Source: Geminicoccaceae bacterium
GTDB lineage: Bacteria; Pseudomonadota; Alphaproteobacteria; Geminicoccales; Geminicoccaceae
Reading direction: 5' to 3'
Assembly (NCBI GenBank): GCA_023512415.1
Contig: JAILZQ010000011.1
Span: 1-35,053, forward strand
DNA length: 35,053 nt
Shown: in pieces, positions 27,029 through 30,521 of the stretch
Layout of the letters: every line of letters begins with the position of its first letter
Position numbering within the stretch: the stretch's first letter is position 1
Made by a program: the position numbers and the translations under genes
Notes under the pieces: model-generated
Databases searched by the model: none
Seen by the model: the letters and a program-made list of their open reading frames with translations, nothing else
What the model was told of the DNA's origin: nothing

Positions 27029-28915
27029 TCAGCCGCTGTCGTGAAAGTGATCGTAGATCGCCTTCGCGACGGCTTTGTTGATGCCGGGCACCCGCTCGAG
27101 GTCGAGCAGGCCGGCCTGCGCCACGGCGCGCGCCGAGCCGAAATGCTGCAGCAGCGCCCGCTTGCGCCGCGCCCCGATGCCGGGCACCGCATCGAGCACG
27201 GAGCGGGTCACCTCCTTCGCCCGGCGCCCCCGATGGGTGGCGACGGCGAAGCGGTGCGCCTCGTCACGCAAGCGTTGCAAGAAGTACAGGACGGGGTCCT
27301 TCGGGTCCAGCGCGAAAGGCTCGCGCCCGGCCATGAAGAAGCGCTCCCGGCCCGCCTCCCGCTCCGGACCCTTGGCGATCGCCAGGACCGCGAGATCGCC
27401 GAGCCCGAGATCCTCGAGCACGGCCGTGGCGGCGGCGAGCTGGCCGGCACCGCCGTCGACCAGCACGAGATCCGGCCAACCGGGCCGGCTGCGTTCCGGA
27501 TCTTCTTCGAGCAGGCGAGAAAAGCGCCGCTCCAGGACCTCGCGCATCATCGCATAGTCATCACCGGGCGAAGCGTCCCGCTTGATCCGGAAGGTGCGGT
27601 AAGCGCGCCGGTCGAAGCCTTCCGGACCGGCCACGATCATCGCGCCGATCGCGTGCGCGCCCTGCACGTGGCTGTTGTCGTAGACCTCGATCCGCCGCGG
27701 CGGCGCTTCGAGCCCGAGCCGGTCGGCGAGCTCCTCGAGCAGCTCGGCCCGGGTGCCGAGTTCGGCGAGCCGCCGGGCGAGCGCCTCCTGGGCGTTCTTG
27801 ACGGCGAGCTCGACCAGCCTCCGCTTGTCGCCGCGCTGCGGCACCTGGATCGCGACCTTCCGGCCGGCCCGAACCCCGAGCGCCTCGGCCAACAGCTCCG
27901 GCTCGGGGACCGGCTGGTCGAGGAGCAGGAGCGCAGGCGGGCTGCGCTCGGTGTAGAATTGGGCGATGAACGCCTGGAGGATCTCGGCCGGCTCGCTGCC
28001 CCTGGTGTGTGCCGGGAAATAGGCGCGGTTCCCGAAGTTCCGGCCGTCCCGGTAGAAAAACACCTGGATGCAGGCCTTACCGCCCTGGATCGCGAGGGCG
28101 ATCACGTCGGCATCGGCCACCGCGTCGGTGTTGATCCCCTGCCGGCTCTGGATGTGCGCCAAGGCCTTGAGCCGGTCGCGGTAGACCGCCGCGCTCTCGA
28201 AGTCGAGCCGCTCGGCGGCCGCCTCCATCTCGGCCTTGAGCCGCTCCTGGACGTCGCGCGAGCGCCCAGCCAGGAACTCCCGGACCTCCTCGACCAGGCG
28301 GCCATAGTCTTCCGCCGAGATGCGGCCCACGCAGGGTGCCGTGCACCGCTTGATCTGGTAGAGCAGGCAGGGCCGCGACCGGCTGTCGAACACCGTGTCC
28401 TTGCAGGATCGGAGCGGAAACGCGCGCAACAGCGCGTTCAAGGTCTCGTTGACCGCGCCCGCCGAGGCGAACGGGCCGAAATACTCGCTACCCGGCCGCT
28501 TGGCGCCGCGGTGCTTGTGGAGTCGGGGGAAGGGGTGGTCGCGGCGCAGCGCGATGAAAGGAAAGCTCTTGTCGTCGCGCAGGACGATGTTGAAGGCCGG
28601 CCGCCAACGCTTGATCAGGTTGGCCTCGAGCAGGAGGGCCTCGACCTCGCTCGCGGTCGTGACGACTTCGAGGGCGCGCGTGAGCGCCACCATCCGCTGC
28701 AGGCGGGCCGAAAGTTTGCCCGGCTGGGCGTAGGCCGCGACGCGTTTCTTGAGCGAGGCGGCCTTGCCGACGTAGAGCAGCTGCCCTTTCTCGTCGAGCA
28801 TGCGGTAGACGCCCGGCTCGTTCGGCAGCGTGGCGAGCTGCCGCCGGATGAGCTCCGCGCCCTTGGGCGCAGCGTCGTCGCTGGCCGGCGCTCGGGCCTC
28901 GAGAAGGTCGGGCAT
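27029..28915 (-). CDS. uvrC: Excinuclease ABC subunit C
   Basis: UvrC makes both incisions in nucleotide excision repair. The 628-residue product has a GIY-YIG domain (about 28-110: GVYRMLDEKGQLLYVGKAASL). The Cys-rich patch is CKDTVFDSRSRPCLLYQIKRC. A UVR (UvrB-binding) motif lies near 205-240, then the RNase H-like domain (EVYDNSHVQGAHAIGAMIV, then PDLVLVDGGAGQL), and a C-terminal double helix-hairpin-helix (VLDAVPGIGARRKRALLQHF, then VPGINKAVAKAI). The start is ATG 28915. A CTTGACC element lies about 30 bases before it, next to the hairpin at 28952-28978. Confidence 0.97.
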   Translation of the reverse strand: MPDLLEARAPASDDAAPKGAELIRRQLATLPNEPGVYRMLDEKGQLLYVGKAASLKKRVAAYAQPGKLSARLQRMVALTRALEVVTTASEVEALLLEANLIKRWRPAFNIVLRDDKSFPFIALRRDHPFPRLHKHRGAKRPGSEYFGPFASAGAVNETLNALLRAFPLRSCKDTVFDSRSRPCLLYQIKRCTAPCVGRISAEDYGRLVEEVREFLAGRSRDVQERLKAEMEAAAERLDFESAAVYRDRLKALAHIQSRQGINTDAVADADVIALAIQGGKACIQVFFYRDGRNFGNRAYFPAHTRGSEPAEILQAFIAQFYTERSPPALLLLDQPVPEPELLAEALGVRAGRKVAIQVPQRGDKRRLVELAVKNAQEALARRLAELGTRAELLEELADRLGLEAPPRRIEVYDNSHVQGAHAIGAMIVAGPEGFDRRAYRTFRIKRDASPGDDYAMMREVLERRFSRLLEEDPERSRPGWPDLVLVDGGAGQLAAATAVLEDLGLGDLAVLAIAKGPEREAGRERFFMAGREPFALDPKDPVLYFLQRLRDEAHRFAVATHRGRRAKEVTRSVLDAVPGIGARRKRALLQHFGSARAVAQAGLLDLERVPGINKAVAKAIYDHFHDSG

Positions 28916-28951
28916 TGCTTTCGGTTTTGGGTTGCGCCCCGGCGGCGGTCA

Positions 28952-28978
28952 AGCGGGGGCGGCCCGGCCGCCCCCGCT
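28952..28978 (-). terminator. Terminator hairpin after the DUF305 gene
   Basis: A perfect 11-bp inverted repeat, AGCGGGGGCGG against CCGCCCCCGCT with a five-base loop, lies six bases after the DUF305 stop and before uvrC. Only TT follows on the minus strand, so it may need help from Rho, but it is the most stable hairpin seen in the window. Confidence 0.6.
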
Positions 28979-28984
28979 GCGAGC

Positions 28985-29434
28985 CTATTTGCCGAGCCGC
29001 TCGAGGATCGCCCGCATCTGGGCGATCTCGGCCTCTTGGACGCGGATGATCTCCTCGGCGAGCTTCCTGACCTCCGGGTCCTTGCCGAAGGCCAGCACCA
29101 CCTTGGCCATGTCGATGGCACCTTGGTGATGCGGGATCATGCCGCGCACGAAATCGACATCGGCGTCGCCCGTGAAGTCGATCGCCATGTCGCGGTGCAT
29201 CCGCTCGTTCGCCGCCTTGAAGGCCGCGGTCGCGGGTGAGTCGGTGGCCCCGGCCGATCCTCGATGCGCCCCGTGCCCCGGCATCGTGTGAGACTGGCCC
29301 TGCATCATGGGCATCTGGCCCTGCATGCCCGGCCCGTGCTGCATGTGCGGCATCGGCCCCTGGGCGGCGAGTCCACCCGGAACCGCCAAGGCGAGCACGC
29401 CGGCCAAGGCCATCATCGTTCTGTTCCTCGACAT
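28985..29434 (-). CDS. Secreted Met/His-rich DUF305 protein
   Basis: The 149-residue protein has a signal peptide (about 1-24, ending GGLAA). A Met/His/Gln/Gly-rich segment follows (about 26-60: many MQG, HM and MPGH units). The DUF305 ferritin-like helical domain contains [16 protein letters not shown] and ends [17 protein letters not shown]305 proteins are often found with copper-handling genes. Metal binding by the Met/His segment is a reasonable inference, not proven. I chose ATG 29434, which has GAGGAA seven bases upstream; a start 13 codons earlier would precede the signal peptide. It ends with TAG. It lies 72 bases after the Cys-rich gene, probably in the same transcript. Confidence 0.88.
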
Positions 29435-29506
29435 CGTTCGTTCCTCGAAGCTGAAGGTCGTGCGGGAATGCACCCGCTCGCCGGTCCGCCACGACCGGCG
29501 GCGGGG

Positions 29507-29872
29507 TCAGCTCACGAGGCAGTGCGGCGGCGGGCGCCAGGGCCCGTCGCCCAACAGTCGCCCGGCGAGCCGGACGACCCCCGGCCGGTATCGATCCGCC
29601 GGCGGTTCCGGAGCGCGAGCCTCGACCTCGGCGAGTGCCACCGGGCAGTGGGCGAGGCAGCAGTTCGGCGTACAGCAGGCGGCCACCGCACCGACCGGTG
29701 GGGGATCGACAGCGGCCGAGAGCCACCCATCGTTCGCCCGTGGCATCGGCGCCTGTGCCACCTCCGCCGCCGAGCCGTGCGGGCAGGGTGCAGCGAACCC
29801 GGAACGCCCGGCGAACCCACCGAGCAGGAGGATCGCGAGCAGCCAGAGGACGAGAGGCCGAGCCGTCGCCAT
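29507..29872 (-). CDS. Small secreted cysteine-rich protein, function unknown
   Basis: I do not recognise a named family for this 121-residue product. It has a clear signal peptide (about 1-28: PLVLWLLAILLLGGFAG, then GFAA). It has seven cysteines: C30, a CC-x3-CC-x3-C cluster at C66/C67, C71/C72 and C76, and C118. H75 lies inside the cluster and H117 next to C118. The Pro/Ala-rich remainder has low complexity. The regular cluster and the DUF305 neighbour suggest periplasmic metal (possibly copper) binding or a disulfide-rich fold; this is inference. The start is ATG 29872. As an uncharacterised small ORF in GC-rich DNA it is less certain than its neighbours, but the signal peptide and Cys pattern argue that it is real. 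Confidence 0.65.
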   Translation of the reverse strand: MATARPLVLWLLAILLLGGFAGRSGFAAPCPHGSAAEVAQAPMPRANDGWLSAAVDPPPVGAVAACCTPNCCLAHCPVALAEVEARAPEPPADRYRPGVVRLAGRLLGDGPWRPPPHCLVS

Positions 29873-30134
29873 GACGCGATCCTAGCCGAGGTAGCCCGAG
29901 CCGTCAGCCGTCAGGGTGGTGGTGTCAGGGGAAACGGGCGGACCCGCTCCGCACCGAACACGTGCGGCCGCGCGCAGCCCGCCCGAACGGGCGAGCCGGA
30001 GGTTCGCGTGACGCGCTTCTACGGGACCGCCGGCTGGGGTATCGTGCGTGTTCGACCTGCGTTCAGGCGCGGTGCTTGACCGCGGGCCGCCGGATGCGCG
30101 AGTGAACGGCGAACGATCAATCGGAGGTAGAGAG
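29873..30134. other. Divergent intergenic region between Cys-rich gene and hisE-like gene
   Basis: No gene is seen in these 262 bases. A CGCCC-GAAC-GGGCG hairpin lies at about 29979-29992. A CTTGACC element (TTGACC at 30076-30081) could be a -35 for the plus-strand gene, but no good -10 follows. A strong ribosome-binding site (GGAGGT, 30123-30128) ends the region. Confidence 0.5.
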
Positions 30135-30521
30135 TTGCCCCGACCTACCCCTTCGAGGCCGGCGCCCCCCGGGGAGCCGCTCCACGGACTGGCCGCGGCA
30201 CTCGCGCGGCTCGAGCACGACCTCGTGCTCGTGCGAGCCGAGCCGCGGCGGGCACCGCGGACCGCGCGGCTCCTCGAGGAAGGTGTCGCCAAGATGGCCA
30301 AGAAGGTGGGCGAGGAAGCGATCGAGCTGGCGCTCGATGCGGTCCGCCGCGACCGCCATGCGGTCATCGGCGAGACCGCCGATCTCCTCTACCACCTCGT
30401 CGTGCTGCTCGACGAGCTGGGCATCGGCTGGACCGAGGTGGCCGAGGAGCTCGAACGTCGGCGCGCTCGGCTCGGCATCGCCGAGAAACTGCCCAAGGTC
30501 CCGGCCGAGCCGACCGCCTGA
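30135..30521 (+). CDS. Phosphoribosyl-ATP pyrophosphatase-like protein (HisE/MazG fold)
   Basis: The 128-residue protein is similar to HisE: RTARLLEEGVAKMAKKVGEEAIELALDA, with the metal-binding ExxE, then ETADLLYHLVVLLDELGI with the second acidic pair. HisE hydrolyses phosphoribosyl-ATP in histidine synthesis. The start is TTG 30135 with GGAGGT seven bases upstream; the frame is open back to 30048, but that part is not conserved. It is longer at both ends than typical HisE (about 105) and stands alone, far from other his genes. It may be the true HisE or a paralogue acting on another nucleotide. It ends six bases from the convergent EamA gene. Confidence 0.78.
   Translation: MPRPTPSRPAPPGEPLHGLAAALARLEHDLVLVRAEPRRAPRTARLLEEGVAKMAKKVGEEAIELALDAVRRDRHAVIGETADLLYHLVVLLDELGIGWTEVAEELERRRARLGIAEKLPKVPAEPTA

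Follow-up and report, generated by a model that had tools for sequence, protein, structure and literature searches.

A cysteine-rich ORF upstream of copM in a Geminicoccaceae bacterium is a candidate CutF-like copper-sensing leader

A short cysteine-rich ORF lies directly upstream of a copM gene in a Geminicoccaceae bacterium, and we consider that it is probably a CutF-like leader, whose nascent exported product would sense copper and control the translation of copM. The locus is contained in a 35,053 nt stretch of DNA (contig JAILZQ010000011.1 of assembly GCA_023512415.1), referred to here as the window. The first-pass annotation had proposed that the two gene products could be an undescribed two-protein copper-handling unit. 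The copper connection is upheld by the family of the downstream protein, the co-occurrence of the two genes and the conserved cysteines, but the idea of an undescribed two-protein kind is not. A regulatory CutF-like leader fits the locus better than a stable partner protein does, because of a C-terminal PWRPPP motif, a spacing of 40–41 residues from the last cysteine to the last proline, and complementarity between each leader RNA and its cognate copM ribosome-binding region. The leader product could, in addition, bind copper in the periplasm as a second function.

Leaders of this kind are already known, namely CutF, CruR and CopL. New here are the copM target, the WRPPP form of the motif, the spacing and the RNA complementarity. 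The term DUF305 was counted zero times in the main texts of PMC9973294, PMC8456105, PMC9426467 and PMC12992588. The neighbouring genes listed in the supplement to the CutF paper may include it. Among the matches listed in our literature searches, no paper connected DUF305 to leader ORFs, as judged from titles and term counts. This reading places a secreted Cys-rich protein that had no name in the field of nascent-chain metal sensing, with CopM as the target, and its two measurable signatures (the 40–41 residue spacing and the cognate complementarity) could be used to find such leaders without sequence homology.

The locus and its downstream gene

We confirmed two adjacent ORFs on the minus strand, a Cys-rich ORF of 121 aa (29507–29872) followed by a DUF305 gene (28985–29434). 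Both are as originally described, the first with a CC-x3-CC-x3-C cluster at residues 66–76 and the second encoding an exported-looking, Met/His-rich DUF305 protein. The pair is flanked by a divergent plus-strand ORF (30048–30521) that we take to be hisE-like and, on the other side, by a minus-strand ORF (27029–28915) that is presumably uvrC-like, both names being assigned from the sequence. The hairpin that follows the pair, in the interval before the uvrC-like ORF, has a perfect G+C stem of 12 bp (28952–28978, minus strand) and is indeed the most stable of the window's 14 simple hairpins, counted as those with a perfect stem of at least 8 and a loop of 3–8; it was absent from the output of a terminator scan of positions 28850–30150. 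Three features go beyond the earlier description: the C-terminal WRPPP of the leader, a hairpin in the intergenic region (29479–29500, minus strand; perfect stem of 8 bp, loop of 6 nt) that ranks fifth by stability among the 14, and the complementarity of the leader RNA to the copM ribosome-binding region.

A consensus scan of positions 28850–30150 found no sigma-70-like promoter. A promoter-like CTGACG-17-TAGGAT (29873–29907, minus strand), uncalled by that scan, stops 6 nt short of the leader ATG, and the transcript of the leader might therefore itself be leaderless.

The downstream protein matched Pfam DUF305 at 2.8e-17 and NCBIfam CopM (NF049983) at 122.1 bits, above the cut-off of 90, and this HMM score places it in the CopM family of copper metallochaperones. 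The likely start codon of copM is the ATG at 29434, not the GTG at 29473, with a Shine–Dalgarno-like GAGGA (29442–29446, minus strand) beginning 12 nt upstream; the queries used in our copM searches started one codon past this ATG (29431 instead of 29434). The CopM protein of Synechocystis, as portrayed in PMC4335983, is rich in Met and His and binds copper; it resides in the periplasm, is partly secreted and takes part in copper resistance. The window protein resembles it in being exported-looking and Met/His-rich, in its HH motif and in scoring above the CopM cut-off, but differs from the protein of PMC4335983 in having one DUF305 stretch rather than two and in being preceded by a leader ORF.

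A divergent leader with a conserved cluster and proline motif

The leader begins with a hydrophobic stretch that, read from the sequence, resembles a signal peptide (approximately residues 1–28; 29789–29872, minus strand). Its cysteines are at positions 30, 66, 67, 71, 72, 76 and 118, five of them in the cluster CC-TPN-CC-LAH-C (residues 66–76; 29645–29677, minus strand), and PPP occupies residues 114–116 of 121, within the C-terminal WRPPP (residues 112–116; 29525–29539, minus strand) that we propose as an arrest motif.

The leader matched no family in Pfam or NCBIfam. Specifically, the window protein and three orthologues showed no match to Pfam PF11162 (DUF2946) up to E = 10, and the window leader had no NCBIfam match up to E = 10, including the CopL family NF033807. 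A direct search with the leader protein in 96 related genomes (that of the window included) returned two clear relatives only, with E values of 7.7e-24 and 5.1e-15, and a tblastn search of plasmids with the window leader and one rhizobial leader gave no match. The other five genus genomes all contain copM, and the remaining genus leaders were located by reading upstream of each copM. A leader precedes copM in 6/6 genus genomes, although that of genome G002 is cut by a contig end. The gap between the leader stop and the copM ATG is 72 nt in the window and 57–72 nt in five of the six.

The genus leaders share only 25–52% identity with the window leader and their bodies are divergent. The invariant alignment columns are C67, C72, H75, C76, L80, P88 and the block P111-W112-R113-P114-P115-P116. 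The CC-x3-CC-x3-C pattern to which the first-pass annotation drew attention is therefore present but is not the conserved unit, since C66 and C71 vary; the putative metal-binding motif is C72-L-A-H75-C76 (CxxHC), whose C72, H75 and C76 are invariant in all six sequences. Conservation of the cysteines and co-occurrence with DUF305, the two points on which the earlier proposal had been made to depend, thus both hold in the six genomes. Across the genus the codons of PWRPPP differ at the third position (Arg as CGC, CGA or CGG, and each of the Pro codons) while the residues are unchanged, which means that the peptide is under selection.

It is conceivable, though improbable, that the product of the Cys-rich ORF binds or chaperones copper(I) as a stable protein of the periplasm and acts together with CopM, with the proline motif serving the protein itself. 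The conserved CxxHC, the signal-peptide-like N-terminus and the co-occurrence with CopM would all be expected of such a protein. The pattern of conservation argues otherwise, as the cluster, the C-terminal WRPPP and the spacing between them are kept in a body that diverges, and a stable binder leaves unexplained the cognate RNA complementarity beyond the Pro codons. One genus member is also awkward for a stable binder: in genome G004 the leader frame (L035) stays open beyond PWRPPP and runs 145 nt into copM, which is read in a different frame, so that, unless the assembly is in error, the protein would carry a long unrelated tail. In this ORF the last cysteine is still 41 residues from the last proline, and its Trp codon is 104 nt from the start of copM, compared with 96–105 nt across all six genomes. 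If it is not an assembly error, the read-through is consistent with a leader mechanism that is set by the pause site rather than by the stop codon.

The PWRPPP pattern CCNTGGCGNCCNCCNCC occurs at 28 places in the six genus genomes, compared with 10 for the reversed pattern. Twenty-two of the 28 are not before copM, and some of these could be further leaders of this type.

Association of CutF-like ORFs with copM

To describe leaders outside the genus we used a detector for ORFs of at most 150 aa with a hydrophobic N-terminus, PP in the last 15 residues and at least two cysteines, on the same strand as copM and with a stop codon positioned from 600 nt upstream of the copM match to 30 nt inside its start. 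Such two-cysteine CutF-like ORFs preceded 33 of 134 non-genus copM loci, compared with four hits in approximately 1,639 control windows, which were the remainder of the same DNA on both strands. The hits comprised 4/9 loci from other genera of the family, 5/45 from the class (one of which, L072, looks like chance) and 24/80 named loci. Without the cysteine condition the detector found 38/134 loci and 18 hits in control windows, and an earlier, slightly different version of the detector found 20/80 named loci, compared with five hits in approximately 1,545 windows. The association of the leader with copM is not due to chance.

The 45 class loci were the strongest of 73 non-genus rows, the weaker 28 having been left out, and the named loci were the best 80 of 576, with possible genome overlap with the other sets of loci. 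All 24 named hits come, judging from their titles and on our own assumption about the grouping, from rhizobial-type genera or families, and they are therefore not independent. No leader of this kind was detected at 56/80 named and 40/45 class loci. Because most copM loci have no detected leader, the CutF-like leader appears to be an optional control of copM.

Among the rhizobial copM leaders, 3/7 matched the CopL family NF033807 at E values up to 1 (best 3.2e-6), and one scored 13.6 bits against DUF2946, below the cut-off of 23.7. A profile comparison of the window-genus and rhizobial leaders gave a probability of 15% over 13 columns, with no clear homology between the two.

In a subgroup of rhizobial leaders (L128, L129, L144, L147 and L171), a second cysteine pair, CPxC, directly follows the signal-peptide-like stretch, in addition to the pair at the fixed spacing. 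Ten further hits to the detector rule lie elsewhere in the named loci; two of these, L163 (spacing 40) and L121 (spacing 43), are not upstream of a copM match and are possibly leaders of other genes.

A near-constant distance between cysteine and proline

In all six genus leaders, 40 or 41 residues separate the last cysteine from the last proline. The detector applied no selection on this spacing, and among its 33 two-cysteine hits, taken without further selection, the distance was 40 or 41 residues in 24 and 39–42 in 26, the other seven being 45 (three), 46 (one), 38 (two) and none (one). Because many of the rhizobial leaders are kin, there are fewer than 33 independent spacing events in this set. 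In the 37 leader–copM pairs used for the RNA analysis described below, the spacing was 40–41 in 30 and 39–42 in 32; one of the exceptions, L041, has a His at a distance of 40. In a subset of 23 proteins, the standard deviation of the cysteine-to-proline distance was 1.7 residues, compared with 9.6 for the distance from the N-terminus to the cysteine and 2.7 for that from the cysteine to the C-terminus.

Published residue numbers give a distance of 43 residues for CutF (C73 to P116) and of 49 for CruR. A distance of approximately 45 residues is discussed by the CutF authors, in a section of PMC9973294, as putting the metal site in the SecY vestibule.

Complementarity between leader RNA and the copM ribosome-binding region

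The RNA between the last Pro codon and a point just past the leader stop (24 nt; 29504–29527, minus strand) is complementary to the copM ribosome-binding region. In the window, the duplex between these 24 nt and the 24 nt before the copM start has an energy of -18.7 kcal/mol, which was equalled by 0.2% of 1,000 shuffles and by 0/106 windows along the leader. The corresponding shuffle fractions were 0.022 in G002, 0.042 in G004, 0.016 in G005, 0.11 in G001 and 0.665 in G003, the tail of which pairs no better than shuffles. Re-pairing leaders and copM genes within the six genus members alone gave a weak signal, with 48/720 arrangements as low.

A broader set of 37 pairs combined the six from the genus with 31 non-genus pairs, chosen by eye from the 38 detector hits (33 with two cysteines and five without). 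Among the 31 non-genus pairs the mean energy was -12.8 kcal/mol compared with -8.9 kcal/mol for shuffles, and 18/31 beat 90% of their shuffles. Over all 37 pairs, the cognate mean was -13.6 kcal/mol and the non-cognate mean -10.7 kcal/mol, with 0/20,000 re-pairings as low, a result that holds after correction for composition by subtracting each tail's shuffled energy. The tail was in the top tenth of its own leader's windows in 19/37 pairs, and at several loci the leader's own stop codon sits within the pairing arm. In an ungapped comparison of the last 80 nt, 35/37 pairs were below 60% identity, and rhizobial kinship remains in the set. A control with ordinary neighbouring gene pairs gave 2/7 below 0.1 (Fisher p 0.22 compared with 18/31), a sample too small at n=7, and the comparisons with windows of the same leader and with re-paired genes took its place.

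Six hits were dropped as not leader-like: L053 and L089 (no spacing), L072 (no fitting cysteine), L088 (spacing 22), L104 (spacing 61) and L179, which may be a real leader, with a spacing of 38 and a duplex fraction of 0.586. L062 was also left out, by oversight; it has a spacing of 41 and a duplex fraction of 0.016, and nine bases at the end of the leader, TTTCTCCTG, can be read as facing CAGGAGAAA at the copM ribosome-binding site.

Calculations of accessibility were mixed, and for this reason the proposed switch is supported by the cognate complementarity more than by the predicted accessibility of the Shine–Dalgarno (SD) sequence. The copM GAGGA of the window is mostly paired in the free RNA, with an unpaired probability of 0.20 that rose to 0.33–0.68 when the tail was removed or covered, depending on the fold bounds and on the amount covered: removal of 22–31 nt gave 0.33–0.63, removal of 19 nt left it unchanged, and other fold bounds gave 0.63–0.68. 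The window fold alone is unusually stable compared with shuffles (z -3.4), the other genus members ranging from -1.5 to +0.6. In 4/6 genus members the main pairing partner of the SD is the tail segment, G003 and G005 being the exceptions. Covering the tail frees the SD clearly in the window and in G005, partly in G001 and not in G003, and hardly in G002 (0.20 to 0.22) and G004 (0.24 to 0.29).

The prediction that the SD would be more hidden by its own tail than by a shuffled one failed on average. Over the 37 pairs the native tails did not reduce SD accessibility relative to shuffled ones (0.38 compared with 0.39; lower in 18/37, p = 0.89). Covering the tail raised the mean accessibility modestly to 0.46, with an increase of more than 0.05 in 19/37.

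A model for copper-responsive translation of copM

By analogy with CutF, we propose that translation of the leader would bring the nascent chain to SecYEG through its signal-peptide-like N-terminus. By the time that the RPPP codons are being read, the CxxHC motif, some 40 residues back, would have emerged and could bind copper(I), and copper on the cluster may prolong the pause at RPPP. The paused ribosome would then cover or melt the RNA past the Pro codons, freeing the copM ribosome-binding region for translation; without copper, the chain would be released and degraded and copM would remain masked. Copper is more likely to turn copM on than off, since the CopM of Synechocystis has a role in copper resistance. 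RxPP cores with Pro in the variable position have been cited as arrest-inducing, and RPPP is among the RAPP-like motifs searched for in work described in part of PMC10987492. Against an arrest at this motif, the Pro motif of CutF alone gave no stalling in a LepB assay, according to a section of PMC9973294.

The identity of the ligand deserves separate consideration. A cluster of cysteines can bind more than one kind of soft metal, or can form disulphides, which is compatible with a leader that senses zinc, silver or the periplasmic redox/disulphide state and that differs from the one proposed here in ligand alone, with the same pause-and-open mechanism. The membership of the target in the CopM family makes such a ligand unlikely, as does the tendency of CutF-like proteins with cysteine motifs to precede mostly copper genes (parts of PMC9973294).

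Extending the copper-sensing leader beyond the genus, we lean slightly towards the view that many alphaproteobacterial copM genes are under sequence-divergent leaders that share two features: a metal-binding Cys or His 40–41 residues from the last Pro of a PP(P) arrest motif at the C-terminus, and RNA directly following the Pro codons that is complementary to the cognate ribosome-binding region. If so, the 40-residue spacing would be a ruler set by the ribosome tunnel plus the translocon, and, as no clear homology was detected between the window-genus and rhizobial leaders, the design would have been either reused or repeatedly evolved.

Relation to known leader peptides

The CutF-like class has been defined by a length below 150 aa, a signal peptide, PP in the last 15 residues, a close gene on the same strand and, mostly, a cysteine motif (as set out in part of PMC9973294). 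The window leader has the corresponding length (121 aa), terminal PPP, short gap to a same-strand gene and CxxHC. In Rhodobacter capsulatus, CutF carries C69xxH72C73 and ends in PEPEGPPPRL, and CutO, encoded downstream, requires both elements for its production, as reported in sections of PMC8456105. The model put forward there and in parts of PMC9973294 is that the nascent chain, passing through SecYEG, binds copper and pauses at the Pro motif, and that a hairpin covering the ribosome-binding site of cutO is opened by the paused ribosome. The window leader shares with the CutF of cutFOG its length of approximately 120 aa, CxxHC, a C-terminal Pro run, a copper gene downstream, RNA structure over the ribosome-binding site of that gene and a similar Cys–Pro distance (43 residues, compared with 40–41 in the genus), and its signal-peptide-like N-terminus may correspond to the signal peptide of CutF. 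It differs in its target, which is copM rather than the multicopper oxidase gene cutO, in its ending (WRPPP with a tail of 5–7 residues in 5/6 genus members, compared with GPPPRL) and in its extra cysteines 4–10 residues before the last one, the comparison with CutF being made through published residue numbers.

The output of SecM is the RNA unmasking of the next gene, as is proposed here for the copM leader. A further likeness to SecM and RAPP-type arrest peptides, as far as these are covered in parts of PMC12992588 and PMC10987492, is an RxPP-like core close to the C-terminus of an exported leader, for which WRPPP is the putative arrest motif; the input here, however, would be metal and not export activity. 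CopL (NF033807) is likewise a leader-like protein of copper genes, and some rhizobial copM leaders match it whereas the window protein does not.

The CruR leader of Bordetella has CxxC and RAPP, and acts with the opposite polarity through Rho (sections of PMC9426467); arrest at its RAPP has been demonstrated in vitro, according to part of PMC12992588. CruR, a DUF2946 protein (Bordetella pertussis bp2923), resembles the window leader in having a cysteine motif and, near the C-terminus, an RxPP core at conserved spacing, and its upstream ORF senses copper, as is proposed for that of the window. The window leader differs from it in carrying CxxHC in place of CxxC and in a spacing of 40–41 instead of 49. 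It is possible in principle that the copM leader works in the same way, so that arrest at RPPP sustains transcription past a Rho-dependent terminator and copper, by relieving the arrest, lowers copM expression. RPPP does conform to the RxPP core seen in the RAPP of CruR, and DUF2946-type ORFs exist elsewhere in the genus, scoring over the cut-off in 2/6 genomes. We nevertheless regard a CruR-type leader as unlikely here. The window leader has no Pfam DUF2946 match; its gap to copM is short (57–72 nt in 5/6 genus genomes, compared with 162 nt for CruR); its complementarity to the ribosome-binding region of copM argues for control at the level of translation; and a copper-tolerance protein should rise with copper and not fall. 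An hhalign comparison of the genus leaders with the genus DUF2946-type ORFs gave a probability of 0.3%, with no clear homology.

Finally, the genome from which the window derives contains a separate DUF2946-like ORF (L192, G000:C178; 1494–1817, minus strand) that scores 21.6 bits, narrowly below the threshold of 23.7, and has RPPGRGPP near its end. It is followed on the same strand by ORFs that we named by eye as YcnI-like and PCuAC-like. As a DUF2946-like ORF also precedes these genes, it is possible that the bacterium uses two kinds of leader.
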